NCBI GenBank assembly: GCA_951799425.1
Contig: OX637391.1
Location: 21,810,551 to 21,874,550, forward strand
Length of the DNA stretch: 64,000 nt
Direction: 5' to 3'
DNA from: Ilex aquifolium
Taxonomy: Eukaryota; Streptophyta; Magnoliopsida; Aquifoliales; Aquifoliaceae
The translations under genes and the position numbers were made by a program. Of this stretch, positions 1 to 61,076 are shown piece by piece. The notes under the pieces were generated by a model that saw only the letters and a program-made list of their open reading frames with translations, was not told the origin of the DNA and did not search any database. Position 1 is the first letter of the stretch, and each line of letters opens with the position of its first letter.

Positions 1-1418
1 TCCTAGGAAAAGTATACTATCCCTTGTTCGAACTCCAGTGAACGATAGTGGTTTCATTACCAAATGACAACCCACTACAAGTGCTAGGAAACCATCTCAC
101 CCCCACTGAGGTAGACTAACCTCTAACACTCTACGGCATCTCTCGAAGGCAATCTAAGTCCCTCACAACAACCATATAATTGAGGAAACCAAAATATTCT
201 CAATTCATCAACATTTCAAGGAATTACCAAATTCCACAATTTCTAATATAATGTTTCATAATATGATGGAAGAAAATGAGCAAGATATCATAATAAGTAA
301 CATTTTGGTGTACAATATCAAACACTAAAGTTTTGAAAGAATACCAAGGAAAAATAGAGGAAAAAGTCCATTTCTCTTTAGAACCAAGGTTTGAAGATGA
401 AAAAGAGAAATTTAATAGTTACCCAACCATCACAATGTTCAAAACATGGCATTTATTTCAAGAGGAACAAGAATCATGTATTTCTTATCATGTATATAAT
501 GATGAGAGTGAAAAACATATATATATACATAAACCCTAGCCTCAATGTAAGAGATTAGGAAGAAATCCCCTACCTTATGCTCTTGAAGAAACCTAGGGTT
601 TGAGTCTTGGATCACTTGTGAACCCTTTGTCTTTCCTTTTGATCTTGAGTTTTATCTTTCTCTCTTTCTCTCTAAGGGTTTCTAGGAGGGTTAGGGTAAG
701 AGGGAGACGAAGAAATGGGGCAAATGAGGCTAAAAAGGGTGTTTTAAAACACCAAAATCCCGATTTTTACTGTTCGGCGGGCGTCAGACAAATGGTACCG
801 GTACCCAGTACCGGTACTGTATGGTACGGGTACTCAGTACCGGTACCCCAAACCTTCTGGAGTCGAAGTACCGGTACACAGTACCGGTACTGTATGGTAC
901 CGGTACTGAGTACCGGTACACTTTGTCTGCTGCAACTTCCAGGGCAGTTTTGACCCATTTAGAGGTTGAATGGGAAAATTTCAATGAGACACACGTTTGT
1001 AGCCCTAGATGTCTACTATCTACTGTAAAAATTTCAGATCAATTGGACTTAAGGATAAAAAGTTATGGCCAAAACACTAAGTAGTGTCCAGGACCCATTT
1101 TACCCAAATTCTCTCTAAAGTGTGTTTTAACTCCGGGACACTTCCTAACTTCTAATACATCCCTATTACCTCCCCCAATGTTTTTCGACCTTCTGGATTC
1201 AATGGAAGCATTATTTTGACCTAAAAACCTTTAGAAACTTGTCTATTCACCCTTTCCAAGTTTAAACATCTTCGACACGTAAACTTCCCAATCAAATTAT
1301 CTCCATAGTATTTATTCCTACGGTTTATTCTTATGTCACTACATATATCCACATTTTTAAAACAATTATTTACTATATATTTATATACATATATAAAAGA
1401 AAAATGCAGGGTGTTACA
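1..1418 (-). repeat. Element A 3' LTR (partial, cut by window start)
   Basis: It matches the right LTR from 5581 onward with roughly 1.8% difference by eye. It ends in GGGTGTTACA at 1418, directly next to the polypurine tract. It carries the TACCGGTA palindrome cluster at 793..922. Confidence 0.85.
793..922. repeat. Cluster of GTACCGGTAC palindromes in element A LTR (left copy)
   Basis: Eight near-perfect copies of the self-complementary decamer GTACCGGTAC lie in two blocks of four. Within each block the start-to-start spacing is 13, 16 and 13 bp. The two blocks are separated by a ~21 bp unrelated spacer. One copy here has a single mismatch (GTACGGGTAC). Confidence 0.9.
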
Positions 1419-1990: not shown

Positions 1991-2199
1991 GTAGTCCTTA
2001 CTCCGTTAGTTCGCTGCGCACTCTGATATAAATTACAATCCACCAAAGGTTACAGTTGAAACCTAACCAGACTTGTCCTCCCATCTTAGCTTCCAAATCC
2101 ATATACATTTTTCCAACGAAATAATTTAAGAAAAATTAACATAATATCATCGAAAATACCATTTTATTGGTCAATACCAATCTTTAGAATTTTGAATTA

Positions 2200-3440
2200 A
2201 AGAACAAATAAATAATCAAGCTTTGGAATCAAGAATAAATGGATATCAAGCTTGGAAATCAAGAACAAAAGAACAAGCAAGGTTTGAAATTAATAATAAA
2301 CGAATCTCAAGTTTTTGGAATCCAAAATAAAGGAACAATCAAGTCTCGAATTCCATAACAAACTCATATCAAGCTTTGGAAATCAAAATAAGAAACAATC
2401 AAAGCTTGAAATCAAGAACAAAGTAACAATCGAGTCTTGGAGTCAATAACAGATGCATATCAAGCTTTGTAACCAAGAACTAAAGAGTATCAAGTTTTGA
2501 ACTCAAGGACAAGAAGAAATCAAGTATTGAAATCAAGAGCAATTGAATGTCAAGTCTTGAAATCAAGAACCAATGAATATCAAGTATTGAATATCAAGAA
2601 TAAATGAATCACAAGGATTAGAATCAATAGCAAATGAATATTAAATTTGGCTATCAAGAACCAATGGATCATCAAGCCTGGGGAAATTAAAAACAAAGGA
2701 ACAACCAAGTCTTGAAATCAAGAACCAAAGGATGTCAAATATTGAATATCAAGAATACATGAATTACAATAGTTAGAATCAATCAAAGGAATACCAAATT
2801 TGGCTATCAAGAGCAAATGAATATTAAGCTTGGAAATCAAGAATAAAAGCGTATCAAGCTTGAAAGTCATGAACAAAGGAGAAATTAAGATTTAACGGAA
2901 CAATCATGTATGGAAATCAATAGCAAACGACTATCAAGGTGTGAAATCAAGAACAAAGGATTATGACGCTTAGAAATCAAGACCAAAAGAACACTTAAGT
3001 CTTGAAACCAAGAATAAAGAATATCAAGTATTGAATATTGAAAATAATTGAATCAAAAGGGTAGAATCAATAACAAACGAATATCAAATTTTTGATACCA
3101 AGAACAAATGGATCATTAAGCTTAGTAAATTAAGGACAACGAAACAATCAAGTCTCGAGATCAATAACAACGGATATCAAGCTTGGAATCATAGATAAAG
3201 TAACAATCATATATTTGAATCGATAACAAACGACTATCAAGGTTTGAAATCAATGACAAAGGCAAGATAAAGAGAAAACACCTCTCCCTTGAAAACTAGG
3301 ATTTCAAGGGCATACCAAAAGGATTTGGTGGTCACCCACCCATAACATAGCTTAGAACAAATCACATTTAAGTTCGGGAATCAAGAGCAAAGGAGAAATC
3401 AAGAGAAAAACACATCTCCTTTGTAAACTAGGGTTTGAAG
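2200..3440. repeat. Degenerate ~30-35 bp minisatellite inside element A
   Basis: About 30 diverged units of the type TCAAGCTTGGAAATCAAGAA + CAAAGGAACAA run from ~2200 to ~3270. Two longer ~110-bp units follow (3270..3360 and 3375..3490), each ending in a TTGAAAACTAGG / CCCACCCATAA-type segment. The array sits where reverse transcriptase, RNase H and most of integrase should be. The long units resemble the element's own LTR (compare 300..440 and 30655..30780), so the array may have grown from LTR sequence. Confidence 0.8.
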
Positions 3441-3454
3441 GCATAAGAAAAGAT

Positions 3455-3967
3455 TTAGGGTTTACCCAACCATAATATATTTTGGAACAAGGTAGTATTA
3501 TCCAGAATGGCAAGCCATGATGATTCCCTAGCAAGTAGATATAAATTAGAGTCAAAGAAATACATATAAGTAAACCTACTGGTAACTGAAATGTAATCCG
3601 CCTGCACGTATCCCTTACAGACCAGCCTGGTATCCCCATGTTCTCCCGTACGCAAGTCAACATATAAAGCATGTTCTAGCTCCTCGAAACCCAATCCCAA
3701 TTCCACCGCGTCCGCAGTACGTATAAAAGAATGAGTCGCATAGGAATCCAATAAAATTCGGGCCCAAGAATGGTAGAGAAGAACGATACCTTCCACAACG
3801 GCATTGGAGGCATCTTCCTCCGGTTGGGTCAAAGCAAAAACCCTTCCTTGATTGGCGCCGCCGGTGGCATGAGCTTGTAACGGTCTCGGTGGTGGTAATG
3901 GTTGTCGTCGCGGTGGCTTGTTTGCATTCACTCGCCCAGTTGCTTGGTTGGTCTTGGTAGAAAGCAA
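3455..3967 (-). pseudogene. Retropepsin-like aspartic protease (element A)
   Basis: The 170-codon open frame resembles the plant gypsy protease that follows gag: RVFALTQPEED, then a strand around ILLDSYATHSFI. The usual active-site triad reads D-S/T-G; here Gly is replaced by Tyr (DSYA), so catalysis is doubtful. Downstream residues (LGLGFEELE..., VCKGYVQAD) fit the family until ~3580; the last ~45 residues run into minisatellite-flanking sequence and do not match. The gag zinc knuckles lie just upstream at 3971..4198 in shifted frames. Confidence 0.7.
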
Positions 3968-3970
3968 TGG

Positions 3971-4460
3971 ACAATTATCTATGAAGTGCCCAACACCTCC
4001 ACAGGCAAAACATCGGCGTGCATCCGTGCCTATTCTCTTTGGTATGCCTCCCGCTCCTCGAGCTATCTGAGGTCTTTGCTGTGCTGGCCTTTGTAGAGGT
4101 GACTAGTTTGCTGGTACTTGCTCGGTTGCTTCCTTAGTCATTGGGGGAAACGAGGGGCATCTATGTTTGAAGTGCCCATACTCTTCGCATGCAAAGCATT
4201 GGCGGGGTCCATGCCTGCTCTCGTCTGAGTAACTCCATCTTCTCCAACTGTCTGAAGTCTTTGTTCAACCGCGTCCACGTCCACGTACACGTCCACGTCC
4301 ACGTCCACGTCCACGTTCACGAGATCTTGTATTCTCGAATTACGAGTGTAACCAGCTTCTCGCGGATGGAAGGCTTCAAATCTTGTTCAAAGCGTTTAGC
4401 CCTCCTTGCCTCAGTGACCACAAACTTGATTGCGTAGCGAGACAACTCATCGAATTCGAA
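3971..4460 (-). pseudogene. Gag C-terminal fragment with two CCHC zinc knuckles (element A)
   Basis: Minus-strand translation near 4330..4460 gives FDELSRYAIKFVVTEARRAKRFEQDLKPSIR, typical of the capsid end of gypsy gag. Two complete CX2CX4HX4C knuckles follow: CFACEEYGHFKHRC at 4157..4198 and CFACGGVGHFIDNC at 3971..4012. A (CCACGT)n hexamer run lies between the capsid part and the first knuckle. Only ~160 bp separate this fragment from the primer binding site, so most of gag is deleted. Frames shift between pieces. Confidence 0.7.
4274..4322. repeat. CCACGT hexanucleotide repeat in gag
   Basis: Eight tandem hexamers (CCACGT, with single variants TACACGT and TTCACG) lie between the capsid and zinc-knuckle parts of gag. 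In the minus frame they encode alternating Val-Asp. Confidence 0.85.
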
Positions 4461-4617
4461 CAAATAATTAACCCTTAACCTAAATATAAAATGAATCTAA
4501 CCTATCTGATAAACACATAACTTCAAACCAATACAAGCCTACGGTTCCTTCAACCTAGTCCTACCTTTCCAGTGGTAATCCATAACCTACAGCTCCCATG
4601 TAAGACCTAAAGCCTAA

Positions 4618-4629
4618 GCTCTGATACCA
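4618..4629 (-). other. Primer binding site of element A (initiator tRNA-Met type)
   Basis: The minus strand reads TGGTATCAGAGC, the standard plant site complementary to the 3' end of initiator tRNA-Met. It lies four bases inside the LTR boundary at 4634. Confidence 0.85.
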
Positions 4630-4633
4630 ACTT

Positions 4634-6999
4634 TGTAACACCCCAAATACCACCCTGGACGACATTACACTATGAAACCATTCATGTCATGAGAGCAACT
4701 AAATATATATCCATCGAATAAGAAACATTCTTAATTTTAACAAAATTTGGGCAGAGTCTCCTTTGTACAGGAAGCTCCACCCAAAAATCACAACCTGTGC
4801 AATTCTATTAACTTGACCACACAGGGTCCATTTAACCATCCAATAACAATAAAATTTCTATTTACCATCTATACTATCCTTAACATTATCACAAAAGAAT
4901 AGGCCAGATATGGCAATTACATTCCCCAAAAGAATTACATGAATATATCGCAGCGGAGTTTCAAAAGAATCTAGACTTTACATTGTTCAGAAATAAATCT
5001 CCTAGTCTAGAACAAAATAAGCTATATCTCTAGATGTCCCATTCGGGATCTAGGTACCCCTCCAAGGAAGCTTCCCCAAGGCCCGGCTCATTCACACCGA
5101 GCTCCTCCTCTAAAGCCAAATCTGAAAAATATTAATTGTAAGGGATGAGCACGAAGCTCTGTAGCAAAATCTTCCCAAACTCAAACAAGGTTTAGAAAAG
5201 CATATAAAACAGTTGGTCTCATTTTCACAAATAGCATATATACCATTTTGAAGGAAAAGCAGGATATTTTAAATAGATCTCAAGTTTAAAGGTTCGCAAT
5301 AATTTAAATGAACCGTAAAGCTCAGTCACAATTATCACCATAACCATTTCCAACAGGTCCTTGTGAAGTCCCATACCTCCACAAGCACTTGTTGGAAACC
5401 ATTCCGTAACAATAATAATAATCTCATGTTCTCATGTATATTGATTCATCCCCGTACCATGTATGTTGATTACTTCTCCTGAATCTACCCAACGATTATA
5501 CCTAGTCCACCTATTTACATCATAATCACAAGCACTATAGGAAAGGGCGTCTACCATCCCAATGGCAGTGACGAGTCCCTTCCTAGGAAAAGTATACTAT
5601 CCCTTGTTCGAACTCCAGTGAACGATAGTGGTTTCATTACCAAATGACAACCCACTACAAGTGCTAGGAAACCATCTCACCCCCACTGGGGTAGACTAAC
5701 CTCTAACACTCTACGGCATCTCTCGAAGGCAATCCAAGTCCCTCACAACAACCATACAATTGAGGAAACCAAAATATTCTCAATTCATCAACATTTCAAG
5801 GAATTACCAAATTCCACAATTTCTAATATAATGTTTCATAATATGATGGAAGAAAATGAGCAAGAGATCATCATAAGTAACATTTTGGTGTACAATATCA
5901 AACACTAAAGTTTTGAAAGCAATACCAAGGAAAAATAGAGGGAAAAGTCCATTTCTCTTTAGAACCAAGGTTTGAAGATGAAAAAGAGAAATTTAATAGT
6001 TACTCAACCATCACAATGTTCAAAACATGGCATTTATTTCAAGAGGAACAAGAATCATGTATTTCTTATCATGTATATAAGGATGAGAGTGAAAAACATA
6101 TATATATACATAAACCCTAGCCTCAATGTAAGAGATTAGGAAGAAATCCCCTACCTTATGCTCTTGAAGAAAACTAGGGTTTGAGTCTTGGATCACTTGT
6201 GAACCCTTTGTCTTTCCTTTTGATCTTGAGTTTTATCTTTCTCTCTTTCTCTCTAAGGGTTTCTAGGAGGTTTAGGGTAAGAGGGAGACGAAGAAATGGG
6301 GCAAATGAGGCTAAAAAGGGTGTTTTAAAACACCAAAATCCCGATTTTTACTGTTCGGCGGGCGTCAGACAAATGGTACCGGTATCCAGTACCGGTACTG
6401 TATGGTACCGGTACTCTGTACCGGTACCCCAAACCTTCTGGAGTCGAAGTACCGGTACACAGTACCGGTACTGTATGGTACCGGTACTGAGTACCGGTAC
6501 ACTTTGTCTGCTGCAACTTCCAGGGAAGTTTTGACCCATTTAGAGGTTGAATTGAAAAATTTCCATGATACACACTTTTGTAGCCCTAGATGTCTATTAT
6601 CTACTGTAAAAATTTCAGATCAATTGGACTTAAGGATAAAAAGTTATGGCCAAAACACTAAGTAATGTCCAGGACCCATTTTACCCAAATTCTCTCTAAA
6701 GTGTGTTTTAACTCCGGGACACTTCCTAACTTCTAATACATCCCTATTACCTCTCCCAATGTTTTTCGACCTTCCGGATTCAATGGAAGCATTATTTTGA
6801 CCTAAAAACCTTTAGAAACTTGTCTATTCACCCTTTCCAAGTTTAAACATCTTCGGCACGTAAACTTCCCAATCAAATTATCTCCATAGTATTTATTCCT
6901 ACGGTTTATTCTTATGTCACTACATATATCCACATTTTTAAAACAATTATTTACTATATATTTATATACATATATAAAAGAAAAATGCGGGGTGTTACA
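4634..6999 (-). repeat. Element A 5' LTR (complete, 2366 bp)
   Basis: It begins TGTAACACCCC at 4634 and ends GGGGTGTTACA at 6999, a perfect inverted terminal repeat. It matches the partial LTR at the window start. The palindrome cluster is at 6374..6502. The solo LTR at 29513..31771 is a diverged relative with the same ends and overall order. Confidence 0.9.
6374..6502. repeat. Cluster of GTACCGGTAC palindromes in element A LTR (right copy)
   Basis: This is the same two-by-four layout as at 793..922, with 13/16/13 bp spacing. The mismatch of the left copy is absent here (GTACCGGTAC); instead the first unit carries one changed base (GTACCGGTAT). Confidence 0.9.
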
Positions 7000-7555
7000 A
7001 TTAGAGATAGTCTTGATCTTCGAGTAGTGAATATCCGGGTAATTACTCCCCACATGCACTGATCTTCTGGGTCTTTTGAATTCTGGATTGGGCTGAATGT
7101 ATGAGTTGGGCTCAACCTTCTTTGTAGCTAATTTAGGCTTACTCCATGAGTTAGGCCTGGACCCAGTTGGATCTGGGCTCATCAATTTCATTTGAATGAT
7201 GTCCTTCATTTAAAAAATATATGTGAGTTATATTTTGCTTTGACAATGTAATTTCTTCCCTCACATATAATATGTGAGTGAAACAGTCACAAGAATTAGA
7301 GGCTTTCTATTCTAAGGGTGAAACCATGGTGAGATTTCTATCAAAACTAATATTGGATAGCTAATAAAGATGTGGATATTGTTTGATAAATTTCTTAAAC
7401 TTCATAATCATCTCAAAATCACACGAGTTTCGGATGCTAACATGTGTGTGAATACTCTTACATAACATTTAAATCTATAGCATGACTTTGTGTGAACTAA
7501 TTTGAGTGGATGTGATATATCTTAAATTTCATTTTAATTAGGAAAGAATAATATC
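7000..7555. other. Spacer between elements A and B, no gene recognised
   Basis: AT-rich sequence. A short open stretch on the minus strand (7010..7209) encodes a Pro/Lys/Ser-rich peptide that I do not recognise; it may be the tail of an older element. The last five bases (ATATC, 7551..7555) are the left target duplication of element B. Confidence 0.4.
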
Positions 7556-7942
7556 TGTAAAACCCGGGAAATTTGAACTTTTTCCGGAAAGGGCAAAATA
7601 GTAATTTGCCACGATAATGCGTATTTAAAATACTCATATTCTAGACCTCTGATGAGCAAATGGAGTTCGCCGTTGGATTCGTATCGCGAAATCTAGTCAC
7701 CCTGTCAAATTTCGTCGAATTCCGAGATAGTCGGATTTTGCACGTCGTTCGAGACGGCTGCGTGGCGAATAACCTCACGAACGTCCCCATAAATAAATTT
7801 TATAAAATTTCCTTAAAATTAAGTTAAAGTTCAAATAAAATTAATTTGAACTTAAACCGAAATCAAATAAGTCGTTTCGGGACGAAATCGGATCCGATTA
7901 AGCGAAGGACACGTGGCGCGACGTGGGCCAAGTATTTAAAAT

Positions 7943-7950
7943 TATAAATA
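7943..7950 (+). promoter_or_regulatory. Probable TATA box of element B LTR
   Basis: TATAAATA lies ~390 bp into the LTR, repeated at 15367..15374 in the 3' LTR. If transcription starts just downstream, most of the LTR, including the palindrome cluster, would be in the transcript. Confidence 0.5.
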
Positions 7951-9530
7951 AGGGTAAATATCTTAGAAAATGAGATTTTTAGCCCATTTTGTTCTTGTTT
8001 GGCCGGCCAAGAGAGAGAGAGAAGAGAAAAAGAGAGAAAACTATTTTCTTCAAGCTTTTTCCCTTGGTTTCTCGGACTTCCGTCACTCGGAATTGCTCGA
8101 GCCAAGAATTAAAGCTGCTCTACGTGACTAGGGCTACGCGTGGGTACCAAGAACGAAGAGTTTCACCGAAAATCAAAAGGCAAAGTTTTGGAGAAATCAA
8201 AGTCTTGAGATTTTGGGGGTGTTCTTGGTGTGTTCTTGAAGCCTAGTCTTCCTTTCAAGCTTCAAGAGGTAGGGTTCTTCCTAAGATTAATCTTTCCTTA
8301 GATGTTGATAATTTAAGGGTTTGATATATGTATATATGGACCCATGTTATATATATATGTGTGGAAATGAGGAAACAAGTCTAGAAACGATCTAAATCAA
8401 TCCTAGCTTGAGTTTGGTATGTGGAAGTTACTTAGGTGATTTTCTTGATACTCGATGTTATGTTAGCATAATTGGTGATAACATGATATGTTTGCCTTGA
8501 AGGTGTTTGATAAAATGCCTCGAGTGACTTGAAGATGTGTTTTGATTGAATTGAAATAGCATGCTTAAGTTTAACTTGTGGAATCATATGCTTAGGATAT
8601 GATTTGTAATTGAATGTGCATGTTGAAATTGTTCATGTGTTGTTCTTGGCATATTGAGCATTAGATTGTGTGCAATGGGACATGACATTGCATATGCACG
8701 GAAGCATCTCATCACATGGGTGTGTGCATGGTTAATGTCAACACCACACTTGGTGATTGACGGTATGGCTTGGGAAAAGTTGGGTCAAAGACCTAGCTAA
8801 GCCGCTTGGTTGCATGATAAATTGGGTTGGGATTAGCAAGAAGAGGCATGACGACCTCTCGGGTGCAAGGCCCGGTGATTTGGGAGATGCACTCCATTGG
8901 TGTAAGAGTCCATAAAGTGTGCGGGTATGGAAGACCCTTGGTGTAAGTCCATGAATATCCAATCCCAAGAAAGACCCTAGTTTTGAAAATGTCATTTGAT
9001 GTGAACATAAATGATGGAATGAAACACTTTGGCATTGCATCGTGTAGTAGGAGTCGGCGAGGACTCGGGTTGAAGTGCATGAGTGAGTGTCGTCTCATTT
9101 CATGGCATGGTAATGTTGCATTCCAACTTAGAATGCATATCCTTATAAGGAATGATTGTTTATAAGTTGCAAATGAATGTTGCATGAGCATGAGCATCTA
9201 GGGGGGAGTAGCCTTTGTAGGACCTACTCTACTGGGCGCTGGCTCACCCTATATGGGAAACATTTCAGGTGTGGGTTTTGCACCGGTGGACGGCTCACTT
9301 GGAGAGCATCAGGCATGAAGGGGGCCAACTTGTGGCTTTTATGGTTTATTTTGTAAAGCTTTGTGAAAATTCCATTTTGATGTGTAAAAGTATGGAATTA
9401 ATTGTAATAGAACTTGTACAAATTATGTTTTATATGGGAAATCCTATCAAACATGTGTTGGATCATTTTTGGGAGGTTTGGAATGGATTGAGAATGGAAA
9501 ATGGTTGAAAAAGGCAAAACTGGACAGAAA

Positions 9531-9672
9531 GTACCGGTACGTAGTACCGGTACGGTGTACCGGTACGCACTTTCCAGTAGGTAAACCGCACCGGTACGCA
9601 GTACCGGTACGGTAGGGTACCGGTACGCAGTACCGGTACGCACTTTCCAGTAGGCAAACCGTACCGGTACAC
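9531..9672. repeat. Cluster of GTACCGGTAC palindromes in element B 5' LTR
   Basis: Eight decamers are arranged 3 + 4 + 1. They are separated inside blocks by 3 or 6 bp (13 or 16 bp start to start), and the blocks are separated by a repeated spacer CACTTTCCAGTAGG-AAACC. One copy is GCACCGGTAC. Confidence 0.9.
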
Positions 9673-9958
9673 TCTCAAGAATTTTCAGATTTTTAAACTG
9701 TTTTTGCCCTAATTTCGGTCTATGTTTTCCTTCACTCCACTGATGTAAATGGACTATAATGGGTATAAATCCTGGTATGTTGGATCTTGGTTGAACCCAA
9801 TAAATAATAGAATCCAGTTTACATTTGTGAGTTATGATCCCAGTTAAGGGGATGCTATCGCCGTGGTGTTGGGTTGAGTGACCTCCACGGGTAATTCCGC
9901 GGGTTGATGGATGATCAACGGTTAATATAGGACCCTCGGATTTAGGGGCGTCACAGCT

Positions 9959-9970
9959 TGGTATAAGAGC
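9959..9970 (+). other. Primer binding site of element B
   Basis: TGGTATAAGAGC, one mismatch from the initiator tRNA-Met site TGGTATCAGAGC, starts four bases after the LTR end. Confidence 0.75.
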
Positions 9971-11451: not shown

Positions 11452-11779
11452 GAGGCGTGTCTACGCCATTATGCCACAGACCGAACCGGCAGATCAGTCG
11501 GTGATACATGGTACATTTCTACTCTCTCGTTTATGGGCAAGAGTATTATTTGACTCTGGTGCATCACATTCATTCATTTCTGCATCTTGTGTGAAAGATC
11601 TGGGCTTAGAGGTTGAGACCTTAGAGGAACCATTGCATGTGAGTTCTCCCCTGGGAGCTAGGGTGAGAGTTGATCAGATATGTCGGGGTTGTGAGCTAGA
11701 GATCTCAAGGATTCTACTCACTGTGGACCTTCGGGTCATGGACATGTCAGAATTCGATGTAATCCTGGGAATGGATTGA
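11452..11779 (+). pseudogene. Retropepsin-like protease of element B
   Basis: In frame with gag. The active-site motif LFDSGASHSFIS is intact at about 11548..11583, followed by LGLEVETLEEPLHVSSPLG and the flap/strand region ending VILGMD. A TGA at 11777..11779 replaces the Trp usually found in GMDWL, cutting protease from reverse transcriptase. The domain would process the gag-pol polyprotein. Confidence 0.85.
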
Positions 11780-14979: not shown

Positions 14980-17389
14980 TGTAAAACCCGGGAAATTTGA
15001 ACTTTTTCCGGAAAGAGCAAAATAGTAATTTGCCACGATAATGCGTATTTAAAATACTCATTTTCTATACCTCGGATGAGCAAACGGAGTTCGCCGTTGG
15101 ATTCATATCGCGAAATCTAGTCACCTTGTCAAATTTCATCGAATTCCGAGATAGTCGGATTTTGCACGTCGTTCGAGGCGACTGCGTGGCGAATGACCTC
15201 ACGAACGTCCCCATAAATAAATTTTATAAAATTTCCTTAAAATTAAGTTAAAGTTCAAATAAAATTAATTTGAACTTAAACCGATATCAAATAAGTCGTT
15301 TCGGGATGAAATCGGATCCGATTAAGCGAAGGACACGTGGCGCGACGTGGGTCAAGTATTTAAAATTATAAATAAGGGTAAATATCTTAGAAAATGAGAT
15401 TTTTAGCCCATTTTGTTCTTGTTTGGCCGGCCAAGAGAGAGAGAGAGAGAGAGAGAGAAGAGAAAAAGAGAGAAAACTATTTTCTTCAAGTTTTTTCCCT
15501 TGGTTTCTCGGACTTCCGTCACTCGGAATCGCTCGAGCCAAGAATTAAAGCTGCTCTACGTGACTAGGGCTACGCGTGGGTACCAAGAACGAAGAGTTTT
15601 AACCGAAAATCAAAAGGCAAAGTTTTGGAGAAATCAAAGTCTTGAGATTTTGGGGGTGTTCTTGAATCCTAGTCTTCCTTTCAAGATTCAAGAGGTAGGG
15701 TTCTTCCTACCTTGGATTAATCTTTCCTTAGATGTTGATAATTTAAGGGTTTGATATATGTATATATGGACCCATGTTATATATATATATATATATATAT
15801 ATGTGGAAATGAGGAAACAAGTCTAGAAACGATCTAAATCAATCCTAGCTTGAGTTTGGTATGTGGAAGTTACTTAGGTGATTTTCTTGATACTCGATGT
15901 TATGTTAGCATAATTGGTGATAACATGATATGTTTGCCTTGAAGGTGTTTGATAAAATGCCTCGAGTGACTTGAAGATGTGTTTTGATTGAATTGAAATA
16001 ACATGCTTAAGGTTAACTTGTGGAATCATATGCTTACGATATGATTTGTAATTGAATGTGCATGTTGAAATTGTTCATGTGTTGTTCTTGGCATATTGAG
16101 CATTAGATTGTGTGCAATGGGACATGGCATTGCATATGCACGGAAGCATTTCATCACATGGGTGTGTGCATGGTTAATGTCAACACCACACTTGGTGATT
16201 GACGGTATGGCTTGGGAAAAGTTGGGTCAAAGACCTAGCTAAGCCGCTTGGGTTGGGATTAGCAAGAAGAGGCATGACGACCTCTCGGGTGCAAGGCCCG
16301 GTGATTTGGGAGATGCACTCCATTGGTGTAAGAGTCCATAAAGTGTGCGGGTATGGAAGACCCTTGGTGTAAGTCCATGACTATCCAATCCTAAGAAAGA
16401 CCCTAGTTTTGAAAATGTCATTTGATGTGAACATAAATGATGGAATGAAACACTTTGGCATTGCAGTAGGAGTCGGCGAGGACTCGGGTTGAAGTGCATG
16501 AGTGAGTGTCGTCTCATTTCATGGCATGGTAGTGTTGCATTCCAACTTAGAATGCATATCTTTATAAGGAATGATTGTTTATAAGTTGCAAATGAATGTT
16601 GCATGAGCATGAGCATCTAGGGGGGAGTAGCCTTTGTAGGACCTACTCTACTGGGCGTTGGCTCACCCTATATGAGAAACATTTCAGGTGTGGGTTTTGC
16701 ACCGGTGGACGGCTCACTTGGAGAGCATCAGGCATGAAGGGGGCCAACTTGTGGCTTTTATGGTTTATTTTGTAAAGCTTTGTGAAAATTCCATTTTGAT
16801 GTGTAAAAGTATGGAATTAATTGTAATGGAACTTGTACAAATTATGTTTTATATGGGAAATCCTATCAAACATGTGTTGGATCATTTTTGGGAGGTTTGG
16901 AATGGATTGAGAATGGAAAATGGTTGAAAAAGGCAAAACTGGACAGAAAATACCGGTACGCAGTACCGGTACGCACTTTCCAGTAGGTAAACCGCACCGG
17001 TACGCAGTACCGGTACAGTAGGGTACCGGTACGGTGTACCGGTACGCACTTTCCAGTAGGCAAACCGTACCGGTACGATGTTGTACCGGTACACAGTACC
17101 GGTACACTCTCAAGAATTTTCAGATTTTTAAACTGTTTTGCCCTAATTTCGGTCTATGTTTTCCTTCCCTCCACTGATGTAAATGGACTATAATGGGTAT
17201 AAATCCTGGTATGTTGGATCTTGGTTGAACCCAATGAATAATAGAATCCAGTTTACATTTGTGAGTTATGATCCCAGTTAAGGGGATGATATCGCCGTGG
17301 TGTTGGGTTGAGTGACCTCCACGGGTAATTCCGCGGGTTGATGGATGATCAACGGTTAATATAGGACCCCCGGATTTAGGGGCGTCACA
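14980..17389 (+). repeat. Element B 3' LTR (2410 bp)
   Basis: It matches the 5' LTR. Visible differences include longer (GA)n near 15434 and (TA)n near 15778, small deletions near 16250 and 16466, and a different palindrome copy number. Confidence 0.93.
16951..17107. repeat. Cluster of GTACCGGTAC palindromes in element B 3' LTR
   Basis: Nine decamers are arranged 2 + 4 + 3, versus 3 + 4 + 1 in the 5' LTR, with the same CACTTTCCAGTAGG spacer. The extra copies lie at the right end. Confidence 0.9.
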
Positions 17390-18122
17390 ATATCTCCCGG
17401 ACAGATAAAAGTAAGTTTGTAGGTATATTCCCTCTAAACCTTCACGAGACAAAACTCGTCCACTAGGGGTAACCAAGGGTTTTAAGGGCTTATTGCATAA
17501 GCTAAATGTAATCGTGATTGCCTACGAAATTGATTTTTTGATTACATTTTATTTGTGTTTTGTGTTTGCTAGAGACAAGCAAAACTTAAGTTTTATGTCT
17601 CAAACCAGTCACTTTAGCTTTGCTCGTTAACTCTATGTTTTGTTTTAGTTGAGTTTGTATTTTATGAGCAAACTGTGTGTTTGCAGGTAATTCGTTGTAA
17701 GAATGATGCTTTACACAGGCAAAAAAACCCTAGTTTTACTGGTAGGACTTGTACCGGTTCACTAGGTAGCAGATAGAGTTTATACTGATATAACATAGTG
17801 CCAGTTCATCACTAAACATAAACCACTTCTACCGGTTCAAGCCTAGTCTTGTACCAGTTCATCACCAAGCAGAGAGCTCTTGTATCAGTTCATACTTTCT
17901 TTATATCGGTACAAGTGGTAAAAATGTGAAAACAAGATTTTATTTTGGAAATTTTCATTAGCAGAATCTTAAGAAAGGGGTTTTTTTTAGAATCGAAACG
18001 ACTAAAAATAAGGAAATAGAGGTCAAATTCGAAGAAGATGGAATTGACAGAAAAAGGTAGGCATAGTTAAGAGGTTCAAATTTGGGACTAAAAAGGCTTT
18101 TAGTAAACCTGATTTCAGTCCC
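17390..18122. other. Older repeat relic flanking element B, with ACCGGTTC-type motifs
   Basis: It starts with the right target duplication ATATC. The stretch GACAAGCAAAACTTAAG near 17573 resembles the segment before the 3' end of Athila-type elements, but this is weak. Between ~17745 and ~17910 variants of ACCGGTTCA / ACCAGTTCA / ATCGGTACA recur every 20-50 bp. No coding region is visible. Confidence 0.35.
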
Positions 18123-29446: not shown

Positions 29447-29512
29447 GGCATGGTTAGGAGCCATTTTCATCAACTTAAGGGAGACCAAAAAGAGAAAAAG
29501 GGGAAGAAAAAT

Positions 29513-31771
29513 TGTAACACCCCAAAACACACCTTGGACGGCATTACATTCTAAAACATTCACATCATGAGAGCACTAAAATAATCCATCAATAAATAAG
29601 ACTTCATAAAGTCATCCATAAAATTTACAGCATTAACCCAAAAGAATAGGCCCATTTTGGCCTTTACATTCCAAAATCAACTAATGTAGCACAGCGGAAA
29701 TAACAAAAGAAAACTAGGCTTTACAATGTTAAAAAGGAATATCCTAGTCTAGAACAAAAGAAAGTGTCACTCTAGGCGTCCACCTCGGGATCCACACTCC
29801 CGTCCAGTGGAGTCTCCCAAGTAGCGGGCTCCTCGACCCCTACGTCCTCCTCTTGTAGAAAATCTGAAAAATGTTAGCGGTAGGGGGGTGAGCACAAAGC
29901 TCTGTAGAACAATTCTCTCAAACCCATACAAGGTTTAGAAAAGCATTCAAAACGGTCGGTCTCATTTCACAAATATCATACATAAAGATTTTGAATGAAA
30001 ATAGTGACATTTTAAAAGAGATCTCAAGTTAAACAGTAGCAATAATCCATTAAAAGAATAGAGTGAGTTTAGCATCGATAAACACAATTCCAATTTAAGC
30101 TATTTAAGAAGGAATTCTCCCCATGCATTGTCCCATACCAATGCATCGGCAAGAACGACCCAACTCCTGATTTCATGTATTTTTGGTTCATCCCCGTACC
30201 ATGTATGTTGATTGCTTCCCGTGAATCTACCCAACGATCATACCTAGTCCACCAATTCCAACCAACAATCACAAATCTCTTTAGGAAGGGCGTGTACCGT
30301 CTCCTACGGCATTGACGAAATCCTCCCAAGGTGTCTAGTATACTAACCCTTTTCCTCGATATATATATGTGAACAATAGTGATCGCGGTCACAACAACGA
30401 TCCACTACGAGCATTAGGCAACCATCTCACCCCCCACTGGGATAGACTAACCTCTAACACTCTACGGCATCTCTCGAAGGTAATCCAAGTCCATCACAAC
30501 AACCATACAATGAGGAAACCAAGAATATTCACAATTCACAACAATTTCCCAAATATAGTAAAAATCCCCAATTTTTTTTCACATTTGTCATATAATCGAA
30601 TAATCCAAGAAAATATGCAAGAGATCGTAATCTATATCATTTTGTTATACAATATTCAACACTAAAGTTTTGAAATCAAAGACAAAGAATAAATTAGGAG
30701 AAAATCCCATTTTCTTCAAAACTCGGTTTGGATTGTGAAAAAGAATGGTTCCATGGTTACCCAACCACCAAAATGTTTGAAACATGCCCTTTATTGCAAA
30801 AATATCAAGAATCATGTACTACACATCATATATATGAGAAGACAAGTGAGAGACATACATAAATATACAACCCTAGCCTCAATGTGTGAGAAATGAGAGA
30901 AAAACCCCTACCTCTTAGTTGTAGCTTTAAATACAAGACCCAACCTTCAAAACCTTTTTATTCTCCTTCCTTTTCCTCTTAATTTCCTCCTCCTAGGGTT
31001 TCAAGAGATTTGGGTGAGATTGGGTGAAGAAGGGAAGAAAAGGAAATAGGTATAGAAGTGGAATCTTGAGGAATTTAGGGTTTTGATCTTCACAAATGAT
31101 GTAAATCTCTCTCTTAGATGTGTTTTTCTCTTCCTCTCTTCTCCTCTCAAGCTATCTAGGGTTTGGAGTGGTGTAATGAAGGCTAAGGAGGTGACAAAAT
31201 GTATTTATAGTGGAGGAAAAATCGAGGGTTCGCGAACAGAAAATTCGGATTTTTATAGTGGCTACCGGTAGCTGATTTTGGCTACCGGTAGCTCGGACAC
31301 ACGGGACCCTCGACTACCGGTTGGCTACCGGTAGCTGATTTTTATTGGACCATCGGCTACCGGTTGGCTACCGGTAGCTGATTTGTACTGGACCATTGGC
31401 TACCGGTAGCTGAATTTGGCTACCGGTAGTCACTACCCAGATTTTTCTACTTCCACTTCCAATGCATTTTTGACCCATTTAGAGGTCGAATTGGAAAATT
31501 TCCATCAGATACACTTTTGTAGCGCTAGATGTCTACTATCTACTGTCAAAATTTCAGGTCCTTTGGAATTAAGACTAAAAAGTTATGTCCAAAGTACTAA
31601 GAAGTATTCAATACCCATTTTTCCCCAAATTCTCGCTAAAGTGTATTTTAACTCCAGGACACTTCCTAACTTCCAATACATCCATATAATTTATTCTTAC
31701 ATCATTATCTATATATATGAATCACTAAACAAATACTTTACTATATAATTATAAACATGCGGGGGTTTACA
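29513..31771 (-). mobile_element. Solo LTR related to element A, TSD AAAAT
   Basis: It starts TGTAACACCCC and ends GGGGGTTTACA, with blocks matching element A's LTR in order (for example the GAGAGCAC segment, the TTTTGACCCATTTAGAGGT block at 31470, and the ATGCGGGG end). It is flanked by AAAAT at 29508..29512 and 31772..31776. Orientation is given by similarity to element A. In place of the GTACCGGTAC cluster it carries GCTACCGGTAGC units at 31258..31432. Confidence 0.85.
31258..31432. repeat. Cluster of GCTACCGGTAGC palindromes in the solo LTR
   Basis: Six copies of the 12-bp palindrome GCTACCGGTAGC or close variants (one ends GTAGTC), plus two CTACCGGTTGG half-variants, often occur as pairs joined by TGATTTT(GG)- or TTGG-type spacers. 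The cluster is at the same place relative to the TTTTGACCCATTTAGAGG block as the cluster in element A's LTR. Confidence 0.9.
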
Positions 31772-32812
31772 AAAATAGAGAAATGCCCTACAAAACTAAG
31801 CCAAAATTCTCTTATTCTACATTTCTTGTTTTTCTTTCTACTTGGAGGGTTGAATCTTTCTCACTTTTTCACTCTAGTCGGTAATAAGAGTGAGAGTGTT
31901 TCAACTATTCCTCGGTGAAGGACTTGTTGTGTTTTATTTCTAGTGTAATGGGATTTACTTACCCTTCTTGCTCGTCTATAGCAATGGAGAGTGAGTAGTC
32001 CGTTTATACTTTTTATGAAAGGTAAAGACGTGTGTAATATTGTTTGAGTAATTGAAATGTAGATGTTTTATTTATACTTTAATGTTTATACCTCCCTTAA
32101 GTGATAGATGGTTTTCATTTATGTTTGGTATTGTACTACTAAATGGTCATAGTTACAAGTATCGAACTAGACTTATTGTTTACCACCATTTTATCTATAC
32201 TCTATTATGTACTTCATGCATGATACAACAATGCAAGTAGTTGGGATTTATGTAATAGTCGGGAGATTGGTTATAGAATGGTTAAATCTTGTCATAGCCA
32301 ATGCTTTCGATTCAATGCATAAACTGGAACTCCGTCTTCATTAAGTCATAGACCTGCCAATCCAATAGCCATAGTAAACCTTTTGAATGGTTCACCTTTG
32401 GGTTTACTAGGGCTATTTGGTGGTTGTATGGTGCATAGAACTTTTGGCTAACTTAACTGTTGTCGTGATATAGTTCAATAAATACATCAGACCTACCGAT
32501 TAACTCTTTGTTGACACATGAGTTAATTCTTGTAAGGTGGCATTTTCATAGTCAAGCAATAAAATGTATGTTGGATCCCCAAACTAAAGAGTAGATTGTT
32601 TCATTTGTTGTAATCAAAGTTTAGTTTAAGTGTTTATTTATCAGTTTTAAGTTCACATCACAGATGTTATAATGCACACTACACGCACGACAATTTCACC
32701 CTTTCTGTTTGGAGTTCCAATAGATAACTCCATGTGATTCGACCTTGGACTTCACTGAGTAATATTACAACTTGACCACTTATCTTTGGGTGTACGATTA
32801 AGATCAAGTCAT

Positions 32813-47470: not shown

Positions 47471-61076
<13,606 letters not shown>

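Follow-up and report, generated by a model that had tools for sequence, protein, structure and literature searches.

The cis-regulatory regions of LTR retrotransposons have usually been studied one family at a time. Tandem enhancer boxes occur in U3 of plant LTR elements such as Tnt1 and Tto1, copia elements with short boxes that are not known as palindromic. Clustered dyads have been described in Sirevirus LTRs as repeated motifs (RM boxes), which are CpG-rich, reach at least eight copies per element, lie shortly 5' of the TATA box and consist of dyads that differ between families (Bousios et al., 2010; PMC2829016). The same paper terms the RM box Sirevirus-specific relative to classic copia elements, and AGCGGTASTACCGCT of the Sirevirus Inga has CGGTA/TACCG half-sites, as do the dyads described below. 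In LTRs of the Del (Tekay) lineage, TGTAACACCC is the commonest U3 att and plastic CpG islands have been described, none of them in eudicot Del LTRs (Cruz et al., 2014; PMC4029996); the string "palindrom" is absent from the text of that paper. VANDAL transposons carry VANC-target motifs, which are short, fast-evolving tandem arrays in noncoding TE DNA; one motif is also present in the unrelated TE AT9TSD1, and VANDALs encode their own anti-silencing protein (PMC5735166, PMC10398659). The string "palindrom" gave 0 matches in PMC5735166. Our literature search found no description of palindromic arrays in Ty3/gypsy LTRs, many matches having been judged from their listing, which leaves absence unproven, and among the matches listed for the letters of TACCGGTA or GTACCGGTAC none was by title on retrotransposon LTRs.

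The window, the whole 64-kb stretch of Ilex aquifolium DNA that was analysed, resembles the RM box system in having eight units each (1-mismatch units included) in the 5' LTRs of elements A and B (A5 and B5) and a CpG island at the arrays. It departs from the Sireviruses, which are Ty1/copia (PMC2829016), since element B is Ty3/gypsy and the dyad core is CCGG, and also in that the array can occupy the 3' part of an LTR and that near-identical modules lie in differing LTR backgrounds. Element A begins with the Del att, and its CpG-rich block is the array, a difference from eudicot Del LTRs. The arrays are like VANC targets in being short, fast-evolving tandem repeats of noncoding TE DNA shared by several families. 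We consider it probable that the array is a DNA-level cis-regulatory dyad module of LTRs, similar to the Sirevirus box, and that recombination carries it from one LTR family to another.

Elements and dyad arrays of the window

The ORFs of element B run from gag-protease through RT-RNaseH to integrase, with SH3_Tf2-1, which is the Ty3/gypsy order; B is a chromovirus-like Ty3/gypsy element, the chromodomain match in the integrase C-terminus (Chromo, E=0.0098, 16.2 bits) lying below the cut-off of 25.1. The gag/protease and RT ORFs share one frame with a single stop codon between them (11777-11779), and degenerate TACCGGTTCA-like repeats are found at 17745-17885, a few hundred bases past the B 3' LTR (B3). 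The LTR start of B has one difference from the Del/Tekay att, to which that of A is identical. The A LTRs are 98.2% identical across 1,421 aligned bases, the second being cut by the window start, and the interior of A contains tandem repeats of about 30 bp (2191-3270). The solo LTR C aligns with A at 72.7% (1,357 columns), 82.4% (290) and 77.3% (119), with two further weaker pieces at 68% and 59%. Elsewhere in the window, a 99.8% identical LTR-like repeat pair (48135-48998 and 52543-53406) carries its own short tandem arrays (48758-48812 and 53166-53220) with the palindromic core GTGGGCG-A-CGCCCAC, a different dyad of another family.

Table 1. Coordinates of LTRs, dyad arrays and candidate landmarks in the window
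Feature	Position	Strand	Remarks
A 3' LTR dyad array	795..919	-	LTR cut off by window start
A 5' LTR	4634..6999	-	Begins TGTAACACCC; PBS-like site at 4629
A 5' LTR dyad array	6376..6500	-	8 units; 5' of putative promoter
B 5' LTR	7556..9955	+	TGTAAAACCC...GGGGCGTCACA; 5-bp target duplication ATATC at 7551-7555 and 17390-17394
TATA-like site AAATTATAAATAA	7939..7951	+	LTR position 384; third-best in B5 with plant weight matrix
AGGTAGGG	8267..8274	+	Putative leader-intron donor; order as in A, B, C
TTTCAG	9263..9268	+	Putative leader-intron acceptor
B pre-array segment	9367..9523	+	LTR 1812-1968; 67% match 5' of array in L057 U3
B 5' LTR dyad array	9531..9670	+	8 units; spacers 3,3,21,3,6,3,21 nt
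21-nt spacer	9567..9587	+	Carries box TCCAGTAGG
21-nt spacer	9640..9660	+	Carries box TCCAGTAGG
TGGTATAAGAGC	9959..9970	+	Primer-binding-site-like; 3' of B 5' LTR
B 3' LTR	14980..17389	+	93.8% identity to B 5' LTR
B 3' LTR dyad array	16950..17105	+	9 units incl. 1-mismatch ones; rearranged vs 5' LTR
Solo LTR C	29513..31771	-	Kin of A; AAAAT on either side (29508-29512, 31772-31776)
TATAAATACA	31200..31209	-	About 50 bp 3' of C array; top site of TATA scan in C
C-type dyad array (GCTACCGGTAGC)	31261..31429	-	LTR slot as in A

The arrays and their dyad symmetry can be read directly from the DNA. The window has 28 exact copies of GTACCGGTAC, whereas 100 dinucleotide shuffles gave 0.00 on average, which rules out a chance origin, all 36 copies of TACCGGTA fall within five LTR arrays, and the five clusters with at least four GC-rich dyads per 150 bp are these same arrays. 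The B5 array consists of seven exact GTACCGGTAC units and one 1-mismatch unit at 9588, at steps of 13, 13, 31, 13, 16, 13 and 31 bp. Written with P for the decamer and numbers for spacer nucleotides, its layout is P3P3P21P3P6P3P21P, that of B3 is P3P21P3P6P3P21P6P3P, and that of A5, with steps of 13, 16, 13, 31, 13, 16 and 13 bp, is P3P6P3P21P3P6P3P. The cluster of repeated palindromes with 13- and 16-bp steps that had been noticed earlier is thus real, and the 31-bp step belongs to it as well. In the C array (steps of 20, 32 and 43) the core TACCGGTA is kept and the outer pair is altered on both sides. Scored with our own 100-bp windows rather than CpGplot, the array is the sole qualifying CpG-island block in A5, one of six in B5 and one of three in C.

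Two symmetric dyad types can be distinguished, G-type and C-type, of the form xTACCGGTAx' in which x.x' is G.C or C.G. The 800-Mb host assembly contains 12,088 sites of GTACCGGTAC-N3-GTACCGGTAC, 6,808 pairs of CTACCGGTAG-N1-30-CTACCGGTAG and 26 (13+13) of the asymmetric control pair GTACCGGTAG at N1-30, counts that differ in spacer range (N3 for the first, N1-30 for the others), may be lower bounds for repeated sites and partly mirror amplification of symmetric founders; the reversed-pattern controls of all three gave 0. Some C-type arrays (L053, L054, L055) read TTCTAC-NN-GTAGAA, with a variable centre that often looks CpG-decayed. A scan of viral contigs gave a single match, an iteron-like GTACCGGTAC-rich repeat at 4222-4410 within an ORF (3901-4950) of the phage-like contig L001, which we judged unrelated to the LTR arrays.

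Among 131 G-type spacers of the sample described below, 66 are of 3 nt, 22 of 6, 16 of 21, 8 of 22, 7 of 34 and 5 of 19 nt (others, 7); the 40 C-type spacers include 10 of 33 nt, 8 of 22, 4 of 21 and 4 of 10 nt (others, 14). With at most one mismatch, CCAGTAGG stands at offset 7 in 11/16 G-type and 3/4 C-type spacers of 21 nt, and at offset 8 in 6/8 G-type but only 1/8 C-type spacers of 22 nt. Exact copies are present in 6/33 G-type arrays (shuffled mean 0.03) and 4/13 C-type arrays (0.44), whereas 1-mismatch copies in C-type arrays (8/13, shuffled mean 10.4) carry no information. The box could be a decayed C-type half-site.

It is conceivable, if unlikely, that the arrays are selfish, with functionless palindromic units multiplied and kept alike by slippage, recombination or hairpin formation, and with module exchange as a by-product of homology. 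Since insertion, the B5 and B3 arrays have come to differ through gained or lost units, and unit number ranges from 2 to 13 across the 46 clusters sampled below, as such a process would produce. Selfish amplification accounts poorly for two symmetric types with almost no asymmetric pairs, for a box that keeps its register in most of the 21-22-nt spacers of G-type arrays, for the single promoter-side slot of the array in A/C-type and mosaic LTRs, and for decamers that are conserved while the neighbouring 3-nt spacers vary. In A5 and B5 together, the consensus is broken at 2/160 decamer positions and at 7/24 positions of 3-nt spacers (Fisher 8e-6), the split between the two having been drawn by eye in a way that favours the contrast. 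Selection on the module, which the earlier note had suggested, is compatible with this difference and with the vast excess of symmetric over asymmetric pairs.

Relationships of the LTRs and apparent exchange of the module

The earlier note held that the A and B LTRs share no other visible sequence. This is only partly right. Every A5-B5 match in blastn is anchored in the arrays, but a gap-tolerant local alignment over about 1.4 kb of the array-masked LTRs revealed weak collinear homology. It scored 438, where the best of 400 shuffles reached 396 and A reversed gave 318. The homology is weak because its significance is confined to gap-tolerant scoring (0/400), while under stricter gap costs the real score was equalled or exceeded by 2/400 and 116/400 shuffles. 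TTAGCC, AGGTAGGG and TTTCAG follow in the same order in all three LTRs (positions 686/844/1873 in A, 424/712/1708 in B and 586/859/1903 in C), although TTAGCC and TTTCAG, as hexamers, could recur by chance, and B has a second TTTCAG at LTR position 2128. The 21-nt spacers of A and B have TCCAG[AT]AGG in common, in register, with 8-9 of 21 bases identical. We read the alignment and the landmark order as a distant homology between the A and B LTRs. In A, B and C alike, about 1.0 kb separates AGGTAGGG from TTTCAG (8267-9268 in B), and their arrangement suggests a leader intron within the LTR. The exact cores span LTR positions 501-623 in A5, 344-509 in C and 1977-2114 in B5; the B array is therefore not at the place homologous to that of A, and inheritance of the two arrays in place was rejected on account of their differing positions relative to the landmarks.

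The wider sample comprised 46 distinct clusters, five from the window and 41 from contig C1 loci holding a listed pattern match, a choice that guarantees presence of the module and makes the proportions unfit as estimates; clusters with flanks below 330 bp, fewer than two exact TACCGGTA copies or an array already seen had been left out beforehand. Flanks (20-320 bp per side) were grouped by single linkage at E 1e-6 and at least 60 bp. The groups were B-like (11 G-type, 3 C-type), A/C-like (6 and 2), mosaic (3 and 1), E (3 and 2, plus three G-type clusters with one E flank) and F (6 and 1), leaving L015 (G-type) and L028 (C-type), which have one flank in common, and three lone C-type loci. Several clusters have just two exact cores per LTR. 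Both dyad types are thus present in five flank-pair groups, which are not five independent lineages, since the mosaic group combines one B-like with one A/C-like flank group. In the F family, the LTR pair in L036 is 90.9% identical around an internal region of about 3.3 kb with a CCHC ORF, and the LTR ends of E and F are related; RT_RNaseH and RVT_3 domains, which we take to be a mark of the Tat lineage, are found in the neighbourhood of E and F arrays (L031, L032) as candidate parts of the same elements.

Ten G/C pairs were compared by their flanks. Those of the F pair L013 (G-type) and L056 (C-type) are 82% identical over 346 and 92% over 448 columns and begin to match 13-46 bp from arrays that differ, and those of the mosaic pair L043/L057 (76% and 82%) reach within 5-19 bp of the array. 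Flanks of the remaining eight pairs are 66-85% identical, and most of these pairs have at least one side on which the match stops more than 100 bp from the array.

The converse, near-identical modules in differing flanks, is likewise directly visible. In five cross-group pairs, chosen after the arrays had been inspected, modules are 84.8-95.3% identical. The A module matches those of L015 (94.8% over 96 columns, 32/36 outside decamers), L003 (90.7% over 97, 30/37) and L017 (84.8% over 99, 34/49), and L015 matches L017 (87.9% over 99, 38/49), in each case with no flank match in 600 bp; L027 and L028 (95.3% over 107, 62/67) have one weak 58-bp flank match. Sharing of the module without flanking homology, which the earlier note had proposed to look for, is seen in four of the five pairs. 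A stretch of about 10 bp, ATTTGYCTGA, adjoins the array in A, L015, L003 and L017, and, read beside it, the 21-nt spacer of A runs as the reverse complement of its counterpart in L015, L003 and L017; the A array has inverted-repeat flanks, so the entire module may have flipped.

The mosaic loci connect the two LTR types more closely. L057 has an A-like LTR start (96%, 75 bp) and a C-like promoter side (83%), and its pre-array segment matches that of B at 67% over 157 bp (E 3e-7); L043 matches B at 82% over 50 bp (2e-8). L042 and L048, mosaic by linkage, gave no direct B match, so that such a match is confined to two of the four mosaic loci. The patchwork of L057 and L043 ties the 3' cassette of B to the cassette that A/C-type LTRs have in U3.

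These pairs and the occurrence of both dyad types within flank groups support the view, anticipated in the earlier note, that LTR families of one genome exchange the dyad module. As to how, we infer recombination, plausibly by template switching while RNAs packaged together are reverse transcribed, which would occur at the shared 8-bp cores and would let the two dyad types replace each other within similar flanks; gene conversion in the genome may be an alternative route.

Position relative to the promoter and RNA folding

Start sites and promoter positions were deduced from landmarks and from a TATA scan with a plant weight matrix, which places the expected site first in C, whereas TTTTAAAA of A is not among the nine best. 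By these landmarks the array lies 5' of the putative promoter in A, in C and in eight of nine further A/C-type or mosaic loci, where the LTR start precedes the array by 189-519 bp and TTAGCC and/or GGTAGGG follow it; the ninth, L048, shows none of this landmark pattern. CCACTATAAATACA occurs about 50 bp past the array in C, L025, L043 and L057, which have a clear TATAAATA, and past the array there are TTTAAA-like sites in L004, L010, L039 and L042 and TTATAAG in L040. In B the array occupies the 3' part of the LTR, about 1.6 kb 3' of a TATA-like site, which is unusual for a proximal module. Of the earlier claim of a TATA box at that distance, the TATA-like site at 7939 holds, but it ranks third in B5, the best site being at LTR 229 (window 7784). 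A downstream TATA-like TGGGTATAAATCC (LTR 2205) may place the B array 5' of its promoter too; it ranks sixth in the scan, however, and the region, read by eye, differs in the B-like L009 and L055 (TTATAAATGGAC, AGTAAATGGAC).

If transcription begins near 7970, the B array would sit in the RNA leader, and self-complementary decamers there might promote dimerisation or packaging of genomic RNA, a guess made in the earlier note. Against dinucleotide shuffles, the folds of the B, A and C arrays are indeed much more stable (z -7.5, -13.6 and -9.7). When only non-decamer bases are shuffled, 2/400 (A5) and 6/400 (A3) sequences fold at least as stably, an excess of pairing in A that includes its inverted-repeat flanks; the figure is 32/400 for C but 214/400 (B5) and 341/400 (B3) for B. 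The B array therefore folds no better than its decamers predict, and the one family with the array in the predicted leader shows no extra RNA folding. The module is, moreover, inverted between families and, as far as inferred starts can tell, 5' of the promoter in A, C and the eight further loci. A dimerisation or packaging signal is therefore very improbable, and RNA structure as a common role was discarded on the shuffle-folding result. Rfam gave 0 matches at gathering scores in window positions 1-32000.

A candidate DNA-binding array

Several features together point to a DNA-binding array: the units are symmetric dyads and stay constant across families, the array is met in either orientation and at two different positions of the LTR, and in A/C-type LTRs it lies close to the putative promoter. 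In the cis-regulatory reading, the module would consist of tandem perfect dyads xTACCGGTAx', often with the CCAGTAGG box mid-way in 21-22-nt spacers, and would be bound most likely by a host transcription factor that acts as a dimer, or by a protein of silencing or anti-silencing. We infer such binding, and an effect of it on expression from the LTR promoter, from sequence features. In A/C-type LTRs the module would act from U3, about 50 bp 5' of a TATA-like site, and in B-type LTRs from the 3' part, behind the segment whose counterpart stands before the U3 array of L057.

The dyads might instead be mainly sources of hairpins and siRNAs and targets of RdDM, as has been proposed for the palindromes of maize Sireviruses, whose palindrome regions are described as small-RNA hotspots (PMC5311732, PMC10760457). 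C>T or G>A changes at the central CpG, found in 6/24 G-type and 5/18 C-type 1-mismatch units, would fit a host silencing target. Silencing alone offers no reason why elements should keep and acquire the module, and we regard this role as improbable, slightly more so than selfish amplification.

Under the cis-regulatory reading, a more far-reaching possibility, which we advance tentatively and rate below even chances, is that the arrays form a transferable regulatory address, with two dyad specificities, each recognised by its own dimeric DNA-binding protein and swapped as cassettes between families. If this is true, elements change their trans-acting partner via recombination and not by point mutation. 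A cassette that keeps its symmetry and switches its type, in varied backgrounds, orientations and positions, would demonstrate a trade in regulatory parts among retrotransposons, and would offer a direct path to the recognising protein, with one bait sequence and thousands of genomic sites. The arrays of this genome suggest that different retrotransposon families trade their control switches.
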